Shown here: positions 697-32,892 of the stretch, in pieces
Position numbering within the stretch: position 1 is the first letter of the stretch
Layout: each line of letters starts with the position of its first letter
From: Solirubrobacteraceae bacterium
GTDB lineage: Bacteria > Actinomycetota > Thermoleophilia > Solirubrobacterales > Solirubrobacteraceae
Assembly: GCA_029263125.1 (NCBI GenBank)
Contig: JAJCYD010000052.1
Span: forward strand, 1-64,000
DNA: 64,000 bases
Direction of reading: 5' to 3'
The notes under the pieces: generated by a model
The model's database searches: none
Told to the model about the DNA's origin: nothing
Seen by the model: the letters and a program-made list of their open reading frames with translations, nothing else
Made by a program: the position numbers and the translations under genes

Positions 697-1196
697 TCAA
701 CGCCGCGACATCGCGAAGGCGTGGGTGCGCAACGAGTCGTATGCGGGCGCACCGGGAACGTCGCCGAGGCTGTGCAGCTCGCCGTGCTTCGTCGTCGGCG
801 GCGGCACGATCGGGGGGCTCGCGAGGCGCTCGGCCGTTGGCGCTTCGCCCGGAAGGTCGCGTGGATGAGCGCCGAGCTCGGCGAGCGCGGCGGCCAGCGC
901 TCCACGTTCGCAGGAGCGGGATCGGGGATCACGTCGAGATCCTTCGTCGTGCGCCGGTGGCCGTGGACCTGGAGGCCAACACCGCCCATCACCGTGTACT
1001 CGACCCCGTGACGACTCAGCGTCGCCAGCAGCTCGCGCACGTCAAAGGACGTTGACGGAAGCTCGTCACCCATCAGGGCTGCCCATGTGGCTCGGGCCTT
1101 CGCGGCCGCGATCTCGAGCTCGGTGGCGACGAGGTTCCACGACGCGGACTCGGCCAGCCGTTGCGCCGGGGTGAGACTATCTGCGAGAACGGACAT
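697..1196 (-). pseudogene. Frameshifted nucleotidyltransferase-type protein (DUF6036/AbiEii-like)
   Basis: The N-terminal frame carries a typical nucleotidyltransferase core: VRELLATLSRHGVEYTVMGG, then GLQVHGHRRTTKDLDVIPDP with the D-x-D metal-binding motif. After NVER, near 895-899, the family-like sequence moves to the next frame (LAAALAELGAHPRDLPGEAP, then HGELHSLGDVPGAPAYDSLR) and ends at TGA 699-697. Restoring one base, for example CTG for the leucine after NVER, would rejoin the halves. The segment before the core (SLTPAQRLAESASWN) resembles the helical lead-in seen in related proteins. Such genes usually belong to mobile toxin-antitoxin-like modules. The break could be decay or a sequencing error. 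Confidence 0.6.
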
Positions 1197-1675
1197 GCTG
1201 GCGGGGGTCATCGCATCCGGTGTCGCCCAGGCCACCCCTGCGATGGCCACGTGGTGCAGGTGAAGCTTGAGCACGGATGGACGTCAAGCGCACTGGACGG
1301 TTGGACGGTTCTTTGAGATCCTCTGGCTGGGTGCGGGTGACCGACGAAGCGAAGAGCAGACCCTTGGGGCTTCACTGAGTCTGTCGCGCGGCTTGGCCCT
1401 TCGAGGGCCCTTGAGATGCGCGCCCCGGTGTCGCGCCCGCACCCGACTTCGCCGGTTCGCTGGCGGTCCAGTCGGCGACGAGCCAGGGCTCTCGGGATCG
1501 CGGGGGCAGCACCGGCGGAGATTCGATGACTGGTTCTTGCATCGGGCGCGAGGTCGAAGCGCAGGTGTCCAGCCGTGAGGGTCGCGTTCGCCACCGGCTC
1601 GGCCATCCGGATGAGATGGCAGGACGACCACGCCGAGGACGGACACGCCGGAGATCAATCGCATGCGATTTCACT
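1197..1675. other. About 480 bases without a supportable gene
   Basis: Short frames exist on both strands but none shows a domain, a plausible start with promoter, or steady third-position GC. A minus-strand stretch near 1372-1606 that switches frames could be another decayed gene, but I cannot name it. With the relic at 697-1196 this makes a degraded accessory patch. Confidence 0.5.
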
Positions 1676-2284
1676 TCAGCATCCGCGCTTGGAGGCGGCC
1701 AGCAACACGACACCCACCCACAGCCCGCCCAGTGCCCAGCCGCCGAGCACGTCGGTGCTCCAGTGCACGCCAAGATAGGCGCGGGAGATTCCCACGATCG
1801 CGATGACCAGGAGCGCGACCGCGAAGAGCGCGCCGCGAGATCGACGGCTCGCGATCACGCCGCCGATCACGAACGCGAGCGCGATCCAGCCGGCCGCCGC
1901 CGCCGTCGCGTGACCGGAGGGAAACGCGTAGCCGATCGCGTTGACCAGACCGTCGTCCGGGCGCGCCCGCGCGACCGCGAGCTTGGTCAGGTTGCTCAGC
2001 GTGCTGGCCCCGGCGAGCGTCGCGGCGAGGATCAGAAACGGCTGCCAGCTCCGCGTGACGCGCCGCAGCACCAGGCCCACCACAGCCCCGAGCGGCACGA
2101 GGACGGCGGTGCTGCCCAGCCACGTGACGATCTCAACGACGCTCGTCAGTCCCGTCCTGCGGTGCGAGAGCATGAACGACGCGACGTCCGCGTCGAACCA
2201 GACCGGCTGCGCGTCGCCCAGGACGGCCGCCAGCGTGACCGCGAACGCGGCGCAGAGGACGGCGAGCGCCGCGAGCCTGACCAC
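1676..2284 (-). CDS. PAP2-family membrane phosphatase
   Basis: This is a PAP2/phosphatidic-acid phosphatase-type membrane enzyme of about 202 residues. It has all three signature motifs: C1 KLAVARARP (K-x6-RP), C2 PSGH, and C3 SRAYLGVHWSTD (SR-x5-H-x3-D). The two histidines are the phosphohistidine nucleophile and its helper. Five to six hydrophobic segments surround them. Likely substrates are lipid phosphates or isoprenyl pyrophosphates; the sequence does not say which. I chose GTG at 2284 because the open frame upstream runs back into the carboxypeptidase gene, which ends at 2305, without another good start in between. Confidence 0.82.
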   Translation of the reverse strand: MVRLAALAVLCAAFAVTLAAVLGDAQPVWFDADVASFMLSHRRTGLTSVVEIVTWLGSTAVLVPLGAVVGLVLRRVTRSWQPFLILAATLAGASTLSNLTKLAVARARPDDGLVNAIGYAFPSGHATAAAAGWIALAFVIGGVIASRRSRGALFAVALLVIAIVGISRAYLGVHWSTDVLGGWALGGLWVGVVLLAASKRGC

Positions 2285-2304
2285 GAGCGGGGGCGTGCGG
2301 GGAG

Positions 2305-4602
2305 CTACGACGACTTCTTCTTGGGGCGTGACGTCTTCTTGGCCGGGGCCTTGACGCCGAAGCGCCTGGTGCACGAGCGTCGGGCGGCGGACCGGCGCGC
2401 CCTGCTCGTGATGCGCTTGGCCCTGCGTGTACACGACGCGAGCTTCAGCGCGCGCTGGCGACGCGCCGACGTGACGCCCGGCGGCACAGGCCGGCCGTTG
2501 ACCGCCGGAGCCGTCGAGCCGGCGGCAGCGCCCGGGTCGCCGCCGACGCGCGAGCCGTCGGAGAACGTCGACGCGCCCGTCCCGCAGCCGATGTCCAGCG
2601 TCGCGGTCTGGCCACGGTCGATGACCAGTGACATGCGCTCCAGCACCGTTCCGTCACGCTGTTCGCAGATCAGCTCGTAGGCCTCCCTGCCGCCGGCCGC
2701 ACCGACGAACGGGCGCGTGGACTGGCCGATGTGCCACTCGTACATCCCGCTGGCCGGCACCGTCGTCGTGGCGTCCAGCTCGTCGGCGATCCTCAGCGGC
2801 GGCTGCTCGCCGGTGAGGCACACGCGCGGCAGGCCGATGTCCACGACGGGCTCGATGCCCTTCCCGCAGTACGGGCTCGTCGTGGTCTGGAAGCGCTTGT
2901 GCAGCCGCAGCACCCTGCCGGCGGGCGCCACGCCGCGCAGGATCGCGTGGTCGGCGTTCTCCGCCGCCGTCTCGGCAGCGATCAACAGGCCTTCGCGCAG
3001 CCCGCCGCGGCCCTGGGCATGCGGGTTCTCGCCCGTCCACTCCGCGACCACCCCGGTTTCGTAGGGCATGTGGAAGTTGCCGTCGGGCGGCCCCATCTCG
3101 ATCGTGTAGCCGTAGCCGCCGGTCGCCGCGTAGGAGTCGTCCTCGGTCGTCCCGGTCGTGTCGTAGAGCTCATATCCATACTGCGAGCTGTAGCCGGTCG
3201 CCTGCCCGATCCGGTCGCCGACGGCCTTCAAGCGCGCTTCGTCGGGCGCCAAGCCCGCCGACCCGGTGCCCGGCGGGCGCAGCACGAGGGCGGCGACGTT
3301 GTGCACGCTGACGAGCGTCGTGACCTGATGCCGGCGGACGTAGTCCCACACCGCGCGGACCTCGGGCTCCGAACGCGGGCCCCTGCCGTGGTAGGTCTGC
3401 CCGGTGACGTCCGACGAGCTCCCCGGGCCGCCCCAGCCCGAGCCGTAGTTGCGGTTGGGATCCACCCCGAAGGCCAGCGCGCAGGGCAGCGACGGCGACA
3501 GCTCGCCGTCGCAGTTCTTGCGCCGGTAGGCGAACAGGCCGCCGGGCGGCGCGATCGATTCGGCGAGCGTCGCAGTGGGGTCCTGGCCGAGCAGCGTGTC
3601 GCCGGGATCGAAGGCGCCGCGCGAGGAGATGAAGCCGTCGGGGTTGACGATCGGCAGGATCACGACGCGCACTCGTGACAGCAGGCCGTCGATGCGCGGC
3701 TCGCCGCGCTGCGCGGTGAGCAGGTGGGCGAACTCCATCGCCGCCTCCATCGACGGCCACTCGCGCGCGTGGTGCAGGGCCATGAGGAAGAAGACGGGCC
3801 GCCCGTCGTCGGCGTCGACGTCGTCGGCGATCTCCACACCGGAGATCTCCCGGCCCTGGTAGGAGGTTCCGAACGTCGCCTTTCGCACCAGGCCGGCGTT
3901 GTCGGCGACCAGCGACTTCAGCTCGGACTGCACGTCGTCGTAGGTGCGGTAGCTCACGCGTCCCGACGGCAGCGGCGACCCGCTTGCGCCGATGCGGCTC
4001 GCGTACCTGCGGTCGGCGTCGCGCGCGGCGGCGAAGGAGGTCGACAGGTCGGCGATCCGCACGGAGAAGCGCATGCCCGACGCGACGACCTTCGCGAGGT
4101 CGACGGCGCCGCCGGCGATCACGTCGGCCCAGTCTCGGCCCTGCTCGTGCGTGACGTCCAGGCCCGAGGATTCCAGCGCCTGAATCTGCTTGTGGCTGCC
4201 GTGCACGCGCAGGAGCGAGACGGGTCCGACGGGGAGCTTGGGCAGCGCGATCGCCGACAGGCGGAACGTCGTCCGCGCGCGCAGCCCGGCGCCGCGCCTG
4301 CGGCAACCGCGTGCGGTGACGCGCTGGCCGGCGCTCACCCACGTCTGCGCGACCTCGCGCCCGCCGAATCCGCGCGAGCTGGCGAGCGTGTTGCGCGCGG
4401 CGTCGCGCAGCTTGAGGTCCCAGTCGCCGCTGCCGCGCAGACGGACGTCGAGGTATCCCGTCAGCGGGGCGCGATAGGTCGTCGACGTGCAGGCCACGCC
4501 CCGCTTGGTCTTCAGCGTCCGGGTGCTCGTCGCGGCCGTCGCCGGCGCCGCGATGACGAGCGCGGCGAGCACGGTGAGTGCGATGAGCGTGAGGCGTGGC
4601 AT
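2305..4602 (-). CDS. Secreted M14-family zinc carboxypeptidase
   Basis: A 765-residue exoprotein. An N-terminal signal peptide ends near the AATA region at about residue 25. The M14 catalytic domain lies at roughly 205-540. It shows the zinc ligands in HHAREWPSMEAAME (H and E of the HxxE-type motif), a substrate-binding NPDG segment, PNRNYGSGWGG, the third zinc ligand in SVHNVAALVLRP, and the general base Glu in YTIEMG. The C-terminal 200 residues are a beta-rich extension ending in a basic tail rich in Lys, Arg and Ser, perhaps for cell-envelope binding. The ATG follows a weak AGGA ribosome site. It probably removes C-terminal residues from extracellular peptides. Confidence 0.88.
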   Translation of the reverse strand: MPRLTLIALTVLAALVIAAPATAATSTRTLKTKRGVACTSTTYRAPLTGYLDVRLRGSGDWDLKLRDAARNTLASSRGFGGREVAQTWVSAGQRVTARGCRRRGAGLRARTTFRLSAIALPKLPVGPVSLLRVHGSHKQIQALESSGLDVTHEQGRDWADVIAGGAVDLAKVVASGMRFSVRIADLSTSFAAARDADRRYASRIGASGSPLPSGRVSYRTYDDVQSELKSLVADNAGLVRKATFGTSYQGREISGVEIADDVDADDGRPVFFLMALHHAREWPSMEAAMEFAHLLTAQRGEPRIDGLLSRVRVVILPIVNPDGFISSRGAFDPGDTLLGQDPTATLAESIAPPGGLFAYRRKNCDGELSPSLPCALAFGVDPNRNYGSGWGGPGSSSDVTGQTYHGRGPRSEPEVRAVWDYVRRHQVTTLVSVHNVAALVLRPPGTGSAGLAPDEARLKAVGDRIGQATGYSSQYGYELYDTTGTTEDDSYAATGGYGYTIEMGPPDGNFHMPYETGVVAEWTGENPHAQGRGGLREGLLIAAETAAENADHAILRGVAPAGRVLRLHKRFQTTTSPYCGKGIEPVVDIGLPRVCLTGEQPPLRIADELDATTTVPASGMYEWHIGQSTRPFVGAAGGREAYELICEQRDGTVLERMSLVIDRGQTATLDIGCGTGASTFSDGSRVGGDPGAAAGSTAPAVNGRPVPPGVTSARRQRALKLASCTRRAKRITSRARRSAARRSCTRRFGVKAPAKKTSRPKKKSS

Positions 4603-28820: not shown

Positions 28821-29294
28821 TCAGCCCGCGATCCGCGCGATCTCGCGGGGGCGCATCAGCGCGATCAGCTCGCCCCGCCGGGACGCCAGCAGCCGAACGC
28901 CGGCGATCCCGCCCTTCTTCAGGTCGATCCGCGCGCCCGTGAGGTCGTGGACGACCTGCTCGAAGTCGGGGTTGTGGCCCACGACGAGCAGGCGCTTGTC
29001 GAGACCCGCCGCGTGCACGAGCTCGATCGCGTCGTCGGCATCAAAGCCACTGCTCAGCGGCTCGTGCACGACCGGCTCGCCGTCGAGCAGCTCGCACGCG
29101 AGCCTCGCGGTGTCCAGCGATCGCACGCGCGGGCTCGTCGCGACGAGCTGGAAGGTCAGCTCGAGTGCCGCCAGTGCGACCCCCGCAGCGCGTGACTGCG
29201 TCTCGCCGCGCTCGGTGAGGCGGCGCTGCTCGTCCGGCCGCGCGCCATGCGGCTCGGCCTCGCCATGACGCAGGAACCACAGTTGCTGGGCCAT
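28821..29294 (-). CDS. SixA-like histidine phosphatase
   Basis: A 157-residue member of the histidine phosphatase superfamily. FLRHGEAEP holds the phospho-acceptor His (RHG), the second Arg lies in TSPRVRSLDTA, and LLVVGHNPDFEQVVHDLTG contains the second catalytic His. Its short, uncapped form matches SixA, which dephosphorylates phosphohistidine proteins. ATG 29294 lies 9 nt after TAGGTT. It is convergent with the flavoprotein gene, with only 3 nt between stops. Confidence 0.87.
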   Translation of the reverse strand: MAQQLWFLRHGEAEPHGARPDEQRRLTERGETQSRAAGVALAALELTFQLVATSPRVRSLDTARLACELLDGEPVVHEPLSSGFDADDAIELVHAAGLDKRLLVVGHNPDFEQVVHDLTGARIDLKKGGIAGVRLLASRRGELIALMRPREIARIAG

Positions 29295-29309: not shown

Positions 29310-29379
29310 CAGGTCCGTCGGCGCACGGTCGTCACCGACCTGTGTCGGTCACATTCCTGGCCGTCGGGGTCCTGTACTG

Positions 29380-29934
29380 GTGGAGTCCGACCCCTTGCCG
29401 CTGAATGCCGACGACATCTCAGATCTCTACGCGTGCCATGCGCGCCGGCTCATCGCGTTCTTCGTGCGCCGCACCTACGACGCCGAGGTCGCGGTGGAGC
29501 TGATGGCCGAGACGTTCGCCGCCGCCGTGGCCGATCGTCGCCGCTTCCGCGGCAGCAGCGACGAGGAGGCGACCGCGTGGCTGTATGGCATCGCGCGCCA
29601 CCGCTACAGCGATTGGCTGCGCCACGCACACGTCGAGCGCAAGGCGCTGTCGCGGCTGGGTCTCGATCCGCCCCAGCTGACCGACGCCGAGCTCGAGCGC
29701 ATCGATGAGCTGGCGGGAACGGCGGAGCTGCGTGCGAAGGTGGCCGAGCAGCTCGAGGCGATGGCACCCGATCATCGCGCGGCGCTGCAGCTGCGCGTCG
29801 TCGACGAGTGCTCCTACGAGGACGTGGCGGCGCGCCTCGGAGTCAGCGAGCAGACCGCACGCGCGCGGGTCTCGCGGGCGTTGCGCGCGTTGGGACAGGC
29901 CGTCGGCGAGGCCGAAGCGGGGCACCTTGCCTGA
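29380..29934 (+). CDS. ECF-type RNA polymerase sigma factor
   Basis: A 184-residue sigma-70 family factor of the ECF class. Region 2 covers DLYACHARRLIAFFVRR through RYSDWLRHAHVERKA (about 10-90). Region 4 is MAPDHRAALQLRVVDECSYEDVAARLGVSEQTARARVSRAL (split helix-turn-helix, about 128-170). It heads an operon with two membrane-anchored proteins and a lipoprotein. No zinc-type anti-sigma gene is present; the next gene may act as regulator only if its 36-residue cytosolic tail suffices. GTG start; no clear ribosome site. Confidence 0.88.
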   Translation: MESDPLPLNADDISDLYACHARRLIAFFVRRTYDAEVAVELMAETFAAAVADRRRFRGSSDEEATAWLYGIARHRYSDWLRHAHVERKALSRLGLDPPQLTDAELERIDELAGTAELRAKVAEQLEAMAPDHRAALQLRVVDECSYEDVAARLGVSEQTARARVSRALRALGQAVGEAEAGHLA

Positions 29935-31129
29935 GCGCGACGACTTCTCGGACTTCCCCGGGCTCGCGCGGTTCGGCGAGGCGCTGCACGACGCCGCGCT
30001 GCGGGCCGGGGCGCCTCGTCGACGCTGGTGGCGCGGCATCACGCTGTCGCTTGTCGTCGCACTCGGCGTTGCCACGAGCGCGACGGGGACGGTGGTCGCG
30101 CTGCGCGGCACGGTGATCTCCACGCCGGACCCGCGCGTGCGCTCCGCGGCGCAGACGCCGCTCGAGCATTCGGCCGTGCTGACGTCGCCGCGCTCGGCCG
30201 ACCCGGCCGGCGGGCCGCCGTGGGCCCTGCGCCTGACGAGCAGTGAGACCGGCCAGACCTGCACGACGGTCGGCCAGGTGCGCGACGACGTTTTCGGGAT
30301 CGTCGGGCAGGACGGCGTGTTCCGCCAGATCCCGCCGGCCGTGACCGATGCGTGCGGACGCGGGCCGCTGCTCGGCAGCCGGATCGTGTCGGCGCCAACA
30401 GCGCGAGCGACGCGTTCGATCGCCTACGGGGTTGGCGGTGAGGACGTCCGTGCGGTGACCATGATCACCGGCGACGAGCGGCGCAAGCTCGAGCTCGGCG
30501 AGCGCGGCACGTTCGTCGCTGCCCTTCCCGGCTACCCCGAGGACACCGCTGCCCGTGTGCAGATCACAGGGCAGGATGGACGGGTCGAGCGCCACGATCT
30601 CGGCGCCCGCCCCGGCCTGGTCACCGACATTGACGGTGCGCCGGCGTGGCGTCTGGCGCGCTACGAGCTCGGCTCACGCCAGTACTGCGCGCGTCTCGGC
30701 GATGCTCGGGGCCCCGCCGATCGCGCCAAGGCTGCGACCAGCGCGAACGGCGGACGTGCGTCCACGCCCACCGCCTGCATCTCTCGGCGCGACGACGTCG
30801 ACTGGGCGGCGCAGGCGCTGCGGCTGCGCCCTGGCCAGAAGGGCGTGCCCGGCTTTGACCGCTGGGACTACAAGCGGCGCCCGCCCCGCACCGTGCTGCT
30901 CGGCGTGGCTCGTGCGTCTGGACTGATCACGCGCGTGACGGTCACCGGAGCGGGGGCGCCGCGCGAGCTGACCCCGGCGCCGAACGGCACGTTCGCGCTG
31001 TTGCTGGCGGTGAGCGTCGATCCGCGCGACCTGCGGATCAGCGTGCGCCTGAAGGACGGCAGCACGCAACAGGGCCGCCCGGGGCACGGGATCGTCAGCG
31101 ACATCGTCCCGTCGAGGAGGCCGCGATGA
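29927..31129 (+). CDS. Membrane-anchored exoprotein of the sigma operon (paralogue 1)
   Basis: A 400-residue protein with a 36-residue basic cytosolic N-terminus, one membrane segment (about 37-59) and a long outside part. The outside part holds a module with ADPAGGPPWALRLT, a pair of Cys about 40 residues apart, IAYGVGGEDVRAVTM and GTFVAALPGY; a similar module recurs later. The next gene has the same modules. TTG 29927 overlaps the sigma stop by 8 nt; other starts downstream are possible. Function unknown; it could sense the envelope for the sigma factor (inference). Confidence 0.7.
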   Translation: MPERDDFSDFPGLARFGEALHDAALRAGAPRRRWWRGITLSLVVALGVATSATGTVVALRGTVISTPDPRVRSAAQTPLEHSAVLTSPRSADPAGGPPWALRLTSSETGQTCTTVGQVRDDVFGIVGQDGVFRQIPPAVTDACGRGPLLGSRIVSAPTARATRSIAYGVGGEDVRAVTMITGDERRKLELGERGTFVAALPGYPEDTAARVQITGQDGRVERHDLGARPGLVTDIDGAPAWRLARYELGSRQYCARLGDARGPADRAKAATSANGGRASTPTACISRRDDVDWAAQALRLRPGQKGVPGFDRWDYKRRPPRTVLLGVARASGLITRVTVTGAGAPRELTPAPNGTFALLLAVSVDPRDLRISVRLKDGSTQQGRPGHGIVSDIVPSRRPR

Positions 31130-32334
31130 ATCTGCGCCGCTGGATCGCAGCCACCCTCGTTGCCGGCGTCGCCCTCGGTGCGGCCGTCGCACTGCGCTAT
31201 CGCGGCGCGCCGTCCCCGGCGTTCGCCGCGCCGGTCGCGGGCGCTGACCCTCCGCCGGTGCAACGCATCCCGATCTCGCCGAGGGGACCGGTCGCGATCG
31301 CCGCGCGCGCCGACGACCCGGGCGGTGGCACGCCGTGGGCGGTGCGCCGCTTTACGACGAGAACAGACGGCCACACCTACCCGTGCAGCCAACTTGGGCG
31401 CCTGGATGGGAAGCGGTTCGGCTGGATCTCCCCCGGCCGGCCGTTTCGCGCCGCGCGCTTCGATCAAGCGGACGTGTCGACGATGTGCGGCGAGCGCTTC
31501 TTCCAGGGCAGGCCGCAGCTCACGCAGGTGACGCTCACCACCGACGGGGCGACCGGTTTGCCTCGGCCCGACCGCACGGTCGTGTGGGGGGTACTGCCAC
31601 CGGGCATCGCGAGCGCGCGGCTCAGCGACGGCACGCGGCTGCGGCCGGGCGCCGGCGGCGTCGTGCTGGCCGTGCTGCCCGGACAGCCGGTCGGAACGCT
31701 GCGGCTCTCCGGCACGCTGCGGACGAGCTCGGGCACGCTTCGGACGTTCCCCGACCCGGCGGCCGGACAGCGGCGGGCGCTCTCGACCGCGCGCCGTCGT
31801 CCCGTGGACGCTGCGCCGCTGAGCGATCGCACGCGCGTCGCGGCGCTGGCCGCGGATCCCGCGGGTGGCGCGGCCTGGGGGATTCTCACCGCCCCCGGCA
31901 CTCGCGGGGCGACCTGCTTCTCCGAGCCATCGCACATCGTCGGCGACCGTGCCGCCCTCGTCGATCCTCGGCTCGGCCTTGCGATGGTCAGCCCGTTGTT
32001 CTTCGGGCTCGACTGCTCCGACCGGCGAGCGCCGACCGCCACCCAGCCGTTGCGGATGGATGTGCTGGTCTCCTCGATTCCCGACGAGGATCCGACGGGC
32101 GCGCGGCAGCTGCGGCGACTCAACGACCGTACGGTGCTGCACGGGCGCACGACCGCCGACGTCACCGCGGTGACGATCACGACGTCACGCGACATCCGGA
32201 CGGTCGTGCCCGATCCTCGCACGCATGTCGTGCTCGCCGTCTACGACGGAACCTTCCCCGCTGAGCGGGTGAAGTTCACGGCGACGCTACGCAACGGGCG
32301 CCACGTCACCGTGCTGCAGTCCTCCGGCGGTTGA
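31126..32334 (+). CDS. Membrane-anchored or secreted exoprotein of the sigma operon (paralogue 2)
   Basis: A 402-residue protein. A signal or anchor segment (about 5-24) precedes two copies of the module seen in the upstream gene: ADDPGGGTPWAVRRFT with CSQLG and TMCG cysteines, then VVWGVLPPGIASARL with VVLAVLPG; later AADPAGGAAWGILTAPG, DCSD and TAVTITT with HVVLAVYDG. The repeat (about 150-190 residues) appears to be an uncharacterised beta-rich fold with conserved cysteines. ATG 31126 overlaps the preceding stop (ATGA), so the paralogues are translated together. Confidence 0.72.
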   Translation: MNLRRWIAATLVAGVALGAAVALRYRGAPSPAFAAPVAGADPPPVQRIPISPRGPVAIAARADDPGGGTPWAVRRFTTRTDGHTYPCSQLGRLDGKRFGWISPGRPFRAARFDQADVSTMCGERFFQGRPQLTQVTLTTDGATGLPRPDRTVVWGVLPPGIASARLSDGTRLRPGAGGVVLAVLPGQPVGTLRLSGTLRTSSGTLRTFPDPAAGQRRALSTARRRPVDAAPLSDRTRVAALAADPAGGAAWGILTAPGTRGATCFSEPSHIVGDRAALVDPRLGLAMVSPLFFGLDCSDRRAPTATQPLRMDVLVSSIPDEDPTGARQLRRLNDRTVLHGRTTADVTAVTITTSRDIRTVVPDPRTHVVLAVYDGTFPAERVKFTATLRNGRHVTVLQSSGG

Positions 32335-32379
32335 CGTGTGGCAACGGACCTCGCGCGCCCGGCGAACCGTACCTCTCAC

Positions 32380-32892
32380 ATGGGCACCAGGACATGCGCC
32401 GGAGCAGTTCTGCTCGGTGCGGCGATCACGGTGGCCGGCTGCGGCTCCGACACGGATGAACGAGCAACGGCATCGGTGTCAGCTCGGAACGCACCGGCGG
32501 CCCAGTCGGTTGATGCTGTGATAGCTCCACGGTGGGGCACTCGCGGCACGCGGTTTGACATTGCGATCACCACGCGCCGCGTCACCGGAGACGTCGGCCG
32601 AGCGAGGCGCGGCTACCGAGTCGAGATTCGATCCGTGAATCCGGCCAGCGCATGTGTCAACAACCGCGACCGCTCGTTCCCGGCCGCGCCCGCCGGCGTC
32701 CGCCTTCGCGTGCGGCTCGGTCCGACGGGAACGGAGGGTGGTCATCTCGGATGGTGTAGCGGGCTGTTTCGAGGGACGATCACGTACTTCTCGGGCTTTG
32801 CCTGTCCGGCCAGGGGCACCTGCCATCCGCCTCGGGAATTTCCGGAGCGCTCTGACGTGGTCGCGCGCTTCGCACGTCGCATCCGGCGCTGA
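32380..32892 (+). CDS. Small lipoprotein, function unknown
   Basis: About 170 residues. From ATG 32380 the first 21 residues form a lipoprotein signal ending in TVAGC; a GTG at 32338, only 3 nt after the previous stop, would give a 14-residue longer N-terminus. The mature part is beta-rich with four cysteines (SACVNN, GWCSG, FACP, GTCHPP), suggesting disulfides outside the membrane. It probably closes the sigma-factor operon. I recognise no family. Confidence 0.65.
   Translation: MGTRTCAGAVLLGAAITVAGCGSDTDERATASVSARNAPAAQSVDAVIAPRWGTRGTRFDIAITTRRVTGDVGRARRGYRVEIRSVNPASACVNNRDRSFPAAPAGVRLRVRLGPTGTEGGHLGWCSGLFRGTITYFSGFACPARGTCHPPREFPERSDVVARFARRIRR

Follow-up and report, generated by a model that had tools for sequence, protein, structure and literature searches.

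A short-tailed membrane protein as a candidate minimal anti-sigma factor for a clade of ECF sigma factors in Solirubrobacteraceae

The sigma operon

The stretch of DNA analyzed here (the window) comprises 64,000 nucleotides from a Solirubrobacteraceae bacterium (phylum Actinomycetota; assembly GCA_029263125.1, contig JAJCYD010000052.1, positions 1 to 64,000). It contains an operon in which the gene for an extracytoplasmic function (ECF) sigma factor is followed directly by genes for two membrane proteins with ectodomains of the same type, referred to here as ectoproteins 1 and 2. Ectoprotein 1 begins with a short cytosolic tail that is likely its sigma-binding part, because a motif in the tail is conserved far beyond the operon and follows one clade of sigma factors despite different ectodomains. 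The features of the operon are as follows.

29348..29353, + strand: putative −35 element GTCACA of the sigma operon, which precedes 93 of 118 clade sigma genes
29371..29376, + strand: putative −10 element CCTGTA, 17 nt past the −35 element, kept in the two closest orthologous operons
29380..29934, + strand: ECF sigma factor, 184 amino acids, Pfam matches above cut-off, C-terminal extension absent
29927..31129, + strand: ectoprotein 1, 400 amino acids, type II membrane protein, proposed minimal anti-sigma factor
29957..29998, + strand: cytosolic tail motif PGLARFGEALHDAA, residues 11-24, proposed sigma-binding helix (from motif statistics)
30032..30106, + strand: transmembrane helix of ectoprotein 1, residues 36-60 (from hydrophobicity and structure model)
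30167..30610, + strand: module 1 of ectoprotein 1, with C112 and C143 (from conservation, profile comparison and model)
30611..31126, + strand: module 2 of ectoprotein 1, with C254 and C284 (from conservation, profile comparison and model)
31126..32334, + strand: ectoprotein 2, membrane anchor and two modules (C87/C121, C264/C297)

The sigma gene starts with GTG at 29380 and encodes sigma-70 regions 2 and 4 only (PF04542, PF08281 and TIGR02937, all above cut-off), stopping after region 4. The ectoprotein 1 gene opens with TTG at 29927, still inside the sigma gene, whose stop codon it overlaps; the two ectoprotein genes in turn overlap by ATGA. Ectoprotein 1 is composed of a 35-residue N-terminal tail, a transmembrane helix and an ectodomain, in that order. 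Ectoprotein 2 shares the ectodomain type, yet only a few residues precede its N-terminal anchor and it has no cytosolic tail; in many relatives it is kept immediately downstream of ectoprotein 1. No Pfam or NCBIfam family was matched at cut-off by either ectoprotein or by the lipoprotein encoded after them. The initial annotation had described an ECF operon with no zinc-binding anti-sigma domain, and this description holds: zf-HC2 has no match among the window proteins at E ≤ 10. The genome as a whole has four zf-HC2 matches, three of them adjoining sigma genes and none on the contig of the window. Nothing found points to an unlinked anti-sigma factor, ECF group assignment having been outside the analysis.

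The tail motif and one clade of sigma factors

The tail motif has the frame LxxLGxxLxxAA and is followed by an Arg-rich stretch and then by the transmembrane helix. Its Leu-x-x-Leu-x-x-x-Leu-x-x-Ala-Ala spacing fits a single helix face. Over 90 tails, the cytosolic part has a median length of 37.5 residues (range 20-111; 35 in the window). In the 62 non-redundant tails among these, the 14-residue motif holds 20.1 bits, compared with a mean of 8.5 bits in shuffled control sets (n = 12; sd 0.2, maximum 8.9). A tandem double motif occurs in two different sequence groups (L025, L052 and L054; L152 and L153), as if the motif were a unit that can be duplicated.

Is the tail a property of the ectodomain family or of the sigma factor next to it? 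In the genome of the window, proteins encoded directly after other ECF genes bear the motif together with a different ectodomain. With a score matrix built from 59 tails of other genomes, the motif was found at P < 0.05 in all 12 scored partners of clade sigma factors, eight of which have other ectodomains, and in none of the eight scored partners of non-clade sigma factors (P 0.11-0.64). The profile of the ectoprotein family covers model positions 1-71 or little more in six of the proteins with other ectodomains. Among these six, the match runs somewhat longer in L175 (1-87) and L187 (7-114); L180 and L194 have none. No Pfam family was matched at cut-off by eight of the tail proteins with other ectodomains.

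The sigma factors tell a matching story. In an ECF tree with 39 rows from this genome, all 11 sigma factors labelled as tail-type fall into one 13-member clade (support 100/98). The remaining two rows of the clade are L192, a frameshifted sigma gene whose next gene is tail-type by eye, and L194, whose partner has a weak motif (P 0.02). About 15 ECF loci in the genome are of the tail type, versus only four zf-HC2 matches. The initial annotation understated this by treating the operon as a single oddity. Two clade sigma genes, L192 (contig C48) and L196 (contig C47), are frameshifted or split, and by eye a tail-type gene still comes next in each.

The same association extends to other genomes. 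Loci matching a profile of the sigma clade at more than 140 bits come from Solirubrobacteraceae, from two further families of its class and from three that belong elsewhere. The 19 such loci examined include the window and a close ortholog; in every one, a short-tailed transmembrane protein follows the sigma gene, and in 15 of the 19 the motif is found at P ≤ 0.005. Among control loci below 118 bits, the figure is 3 of 36. The P values for these loci are somewhat optimistic, the start codon having been picked among candidates. Some of the ectodomains behind the tail have names: DUF4349 in each of the six proteins scanned out of seven from one family outside the class, and LytR_C in L207. In the genome of the window, DUF4349 is also found behind a cytosolic domain of ~80 residues that lacks the motif (L165:738-1946, − strand, contig C34). 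The occurrence of DUF4349 on a short tail in one case and on a longer domain in the other reads as though sigma-binding parts had been swapped on the same sensor.

Distribution of the ectoproteins and coupling to sigma genes

The closest orthologous operons are found in metagenome-assembled genomes of Solirubrobacteraceae, with 67-69% identity in ectoprotein 1. The genome of the window has six ectoprotein matches besides the query at E ≤ 1. A scan of the genome contigs with the single sequence of ectoprotein 1 confirmed zero relatives; the scan with an alignment yielded 19 loci. Ectoprotein matches at E ≤ 1e-5 were found in at least 52 of 146 genomes of the family and in at least 3 of 296 genomes of a phylum-wide sample, all three within the same family; these counts are lower bounds, with at most 12 and 6 candidates scored per genome at first look. 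Neighborhoods were inspected for the stronger matches and for part of the weak ones.

The non-redundant rows that extend into the N-terminal part of the family model number 125; in 91 of them, the sigma stop codon lies within 20 nt of the ectoprotein start, with an offset of −1 in 69 and of −5 in 14. A further 17 rows represent second ectoproteins, whose sigma gene is located at a greater distance upstream. Three rows do not fit either pattern: L105, with an offset of +52, and two from the decayed L010 locus. The genome of the window also holds a decayed paralogous operon, L019 (C24:38200-43500, at about 933-3674), which retains sigma region 2 and open frames for both ectoproteins but has lost sigma region 4 and the tail of the ectoprotein. 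Next to the tail-type sigma loci L033 and L151, the other strand bears an extra gene for a Cys-module protein that has no sigma gene of its own; it is possible that this gene encodes a secreted partner.

Paired-cysteine modules of the ectodomains

There are four homologous modules across ectoproteins 1 and 2, two per protein, each with one conserved Cys pair. That the two proteins share a Cys-bearing module, as first proposed from inspection, is borne out by their alignment, and the module proves to be present twice in each. Module 1 of ectoprotein 1 matches module 1 of ectoprotein 2 with a BLASTP E value of 3e-7 (27% identity over 139 columns), and profile comparison of the four modules joins all six pairs at a probability of 98-99% (E 9e-14 to 9e-21). 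In ectoprotein 1, C112 and C143 are invariant in 25/25 rows, and C112, C143, C254 and C284 are all invariant in 18/18 rows. In ectoprotein 2, the counts over ungapped rows are 25/25 for C87, 23/23 for C121, 23/23 for C264 and 22/23 for C297.

The AlphaFold model of ectoprotein 1 has a mean predicted local distance difference test (pLDDT) score of 80.3; the ectodomain is for the most part well modelled, the tail poorly (blocks 30-53). Fold searches with this model indicate that the modules contain a generic Ig/Fn3-like beta-sandwich. The matches are of this generic kind only (best VIA Z 5.2; best Foldseek E 1.8e-4, TM-score 0.15), and they barely cover the Cys-bearing first part of the modules, residues 84-145, so a new fold is not claimed. 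A search of the PDB with the ectoprotein profile gave nothing at E ≤ 1.

A promoter element upstream of clade sigma genes

The element GTCACA, which occurs within ~130 bp upstream of the 93 clade sigma genes mentioned above, would be expected upstream of 2.5 from shuffled sequences. It occurs upstream of 3 of 56 other ECF genes, L192 being among the three. Some of the clade rows are closely related, and the 118 genes are not independent events. Measured from GTCACA, 52 of the 93 genes have their first in-frame start codon at 34-36 nt, and 75 have it at 29-40 nt. Such distances agree with a −35 and a −10 element and with transcription starting at the start codon. In the window, the GTG at 29380 comes 4 nt after the end of GTCACA-N17-CCTGTA, and the transcript of the sigma operon is presumably leaderless. 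Promoter patterns with a shorter spacer matched only 2 of the 118 genes and were replaced. The exact pattern GTCACA-N15..19-CCTGTA occurs once in the genome, but a reversed control pattern also occurs once, so this count proves little.

Neighboring genes

32338..32892, + strand: putative lipoprotein, outside the conserved unit, absent from orthologous operons

The gene downstream of ectoprotein 2 is a genuine open frame with a lipobox Cys followed by four Cys. The initial annotation had counted it as part of the operon; the four-Cys lipoprotein stands, and its membership of the unit does not. It has no match in those alignment-scan loci that extend past ectoprotein 2, nor in G002 and G006, two genomes with orthologous operons. 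Because orthologous operons occur without it, the lipoprotein is not part of the system. Weak relatives of it occur in five other genomes of 61. Just before the operon, at 28821-29294 on the − strand, lies a gene that by eye appears to encode a small SixA-type histidine phosphatase. PADLOC and a plasmid comparison gave no match.

Proposed mechanism and alternative explanations

How might so short a tail control a sigma factor? Ectoprotein 1 is probably a minimal CnrY-like (class II-like) membrane anti-sigma factor, with interchangeable sensors and in an autoregulated operon. This proposal builds on the observed gene coupling, the conservation of the motif, the tail common to different ectodomains, the match between tail type and sigma clade, and the promoter element. 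From these sequence patterns, we infer sigma binding, inhibition, a signal and a mode of release along the following lines. The sigma factor and its membrane partner would be co-produced, and ectoprotein 1 would hold the sigma factor inactive at the membrane. The tail of ~35 residues, with one amphipathic helix and a basic stretch before the single transmembrane helix, would occupy the sigma factor. The two disulfide-type modules of ectoprotein 1 would sense an envelope or redox signal, perhaps redox because one Cys pair is kept per module, and the tail-less ectoprotein 2 may be a co-sensor. The signal would release the sigma factor, through proteolysis or a conformational change, and the freed sigma factor would transcribe its own operon from GTCACA-N17-CCTGTA. 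That the tail of the first ectoprotein might hold the sigma factor was suggested at the outset, and the wide conservation of the motif and its tracking of the sigma clade across ectodomains strengthen this suggestion. Of the initial interpretation as a whole, the missing zinc anti-sigma factor, the shared module and the tail remain, and the lipoprotein as a unit member drops out.

Several observations weigh against this proposal. The tail-type reading of L192 and L194 was made only once the tree was known, and constraining the 11 labelled rows to one clade costs 13.5 log units (p-AU 0.2). Several clade loci have a weak motif (L202, P 0.036; L204, 0.10; L230, 0.13; L203, 0.22), as do L021 (P 0.04) and L194 in the genome of the window. 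The tail helix, at residues 11-25, is modelled at low confidence (pLDDT about 50). GTCACA is absent upstream of 25 of the 118 clade genes. Finally, 14 of the 125 ectoprotein rows have no same-strand sigma gene in the available stretch. About six of these are contig ends or second proteins there; the other eight (L031, L098, L044(−), L033(+), L018(+), L041, L046 and L151(+)) are unaccounted for and are mostly weak partial matches.

There are other ways to explain a conserved tail beside a sigma gene. The strongest of them, though it is less probable than not by a clear measure, is that ectoprotein 1 is a divergent class II anti-sigma factor whose motif helix contacts one sigma domain and whose basic juxtamembrane stretch contacts a second, as in CnrY. 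CnrY likewise has a short cytosolic part and a single transmembrane helix, and the duplicated tails of some members would provide two helices. However, only one helix, ahead of the basic stretch, is predicted and conserved. A PDB search with the tail profile brought up no anti-sigma chain at E ≤ 10; its two matches are irrelevant (E 0.9 and 2.3), and a profile of 32 positions has little power. The same conservation of the tail and the same gene coupling would also be expected if the tail protein were a positive partner rather than an inhibitor, tethering or protecting the sigma factor, which would need it for activity. Some FecR-type proteins are required for sigma activity. Such a role is unlikely: a FecR domain is far longer than the tail, and Pfam and NCBIfam scans of the window proteins gave no FecR match. 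An even less likely explanation, and a rather far-fetched one, is that the real anti-sigma factor is unlinked or absent, the ectoproteins are mere members of the sigma regulon and the tail is a signal anchor only. Ectoproteins within the sigma operon would indeed be sigma targets if the operon is autoregulated. A plain anchor, however, would not retain a motif of 20 bits, or one that tracks the sigma clade while the ectodomains vary, and ectoprotein 2 has the same ectodomain on an anchor without a tail.

If ectoprotein 1 is a minimal anti-sigma factor, what would follow? A short tail beside many related sigma factors looks like an overlooked kind of off-clamp. More tentatively, and at somewhat less than even likelihood, the tail proteins may form an undescribed class of anti-sigma factor in Actinomycetota, in which one membrane-anchored amphipathic helix is the whole sigma-binding device, combined with many sensors and diversified with one clade of self-regulated, leaderless GTCACA-type ECF genes. 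The sensors of such a class could, with the same reserve, include Cys-paired beta modules, DUF4349, LytR_C and unnamed domains. The motif provides a simple means of recognizing such partners and links many nameless membrane proteins to named sigma factors. Tail-type partners also offer candidate sensors and, if the proposal is correct, show the minimal size of a working anti-sigma factor.

Comparison with known systems

In its available text, a survey of anti-sigma factors reports a recognized class I anti-sigma factor adjoining about a third of ECF sigma factors (PMC7406223). This survey removed domains of <50 residues, so a tail of ~35 residues falls into its blind spot. There is no mention of such tails in the available parts of PMC7406223, PMC8103513, PMC8999054 and PMC3426412, and literature searches, which did not reach the 2021 ECF reclassification, gave no description of such tail proteins. 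The sigma clade may be a numbered ECF group of 2021 with an unnamed anti-sigma factor, which would lower the novelty. Some tail proteins have a weak NCBIfam match over the tail and transmembrane helix to the CU044_5270 family, which is Streptomyces-type and found beside ECF genes (E about 0.001-0.006; 16-19 bits against a cut-off of 100), and window proteins have no match to it.

The promoter resembles that of ECF41, for which a −35 element TGTCACA has been reported as specific in the accessible portion of PMC3426412; here, the element is GTCACA at 29348. Unlike ECF41, the sigma factor of the window has no SnoaL match or other C-terminal extension, and its neighbor is a membrane partner rather than a carboxymuconolactone decarboxylase, oxidoreductase or epimerase. 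Ectoprotein 1 resembles both zinc (ZAS) and non-zinc class I anti-sigma factors in its membrane anchor and its position right after the sigma gene, but it has no zinc-finger match and its cytosolic part is about 35 residues, whereas the class I average is given as 101 in what is available of PMC7406223.

The nearest known design appears to be that of CnrY with CnrH and CnrX. CnrX is a separate extracytoplasmic partner, and the present system likewise has one. There are differences: the ectodomain of ectoprotein 1 consists of Cys-paired beta modules, the host belongs to Actinomycetota, and the tail profile, with its little power, found no sequence similarity to any relevant PDB chain. The available text of PMC7406223 describes CnrY as having two helices, which bind sigma-4 and sigma-2; the tail of ectoprotein 1 has one predicted helix. 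As with CnrY, there is a short cytosolic part, a single transmembrane helix and a co-operonic ECF sigma factor (PMC7406223 and PMC8103513, as far as available). The cytosolic part of ectoprotein 1 lies below the ≥50 residues that define a class I domain, and its arrangement, a short cytosolic part before a single transmembrane helix, is that of class II.

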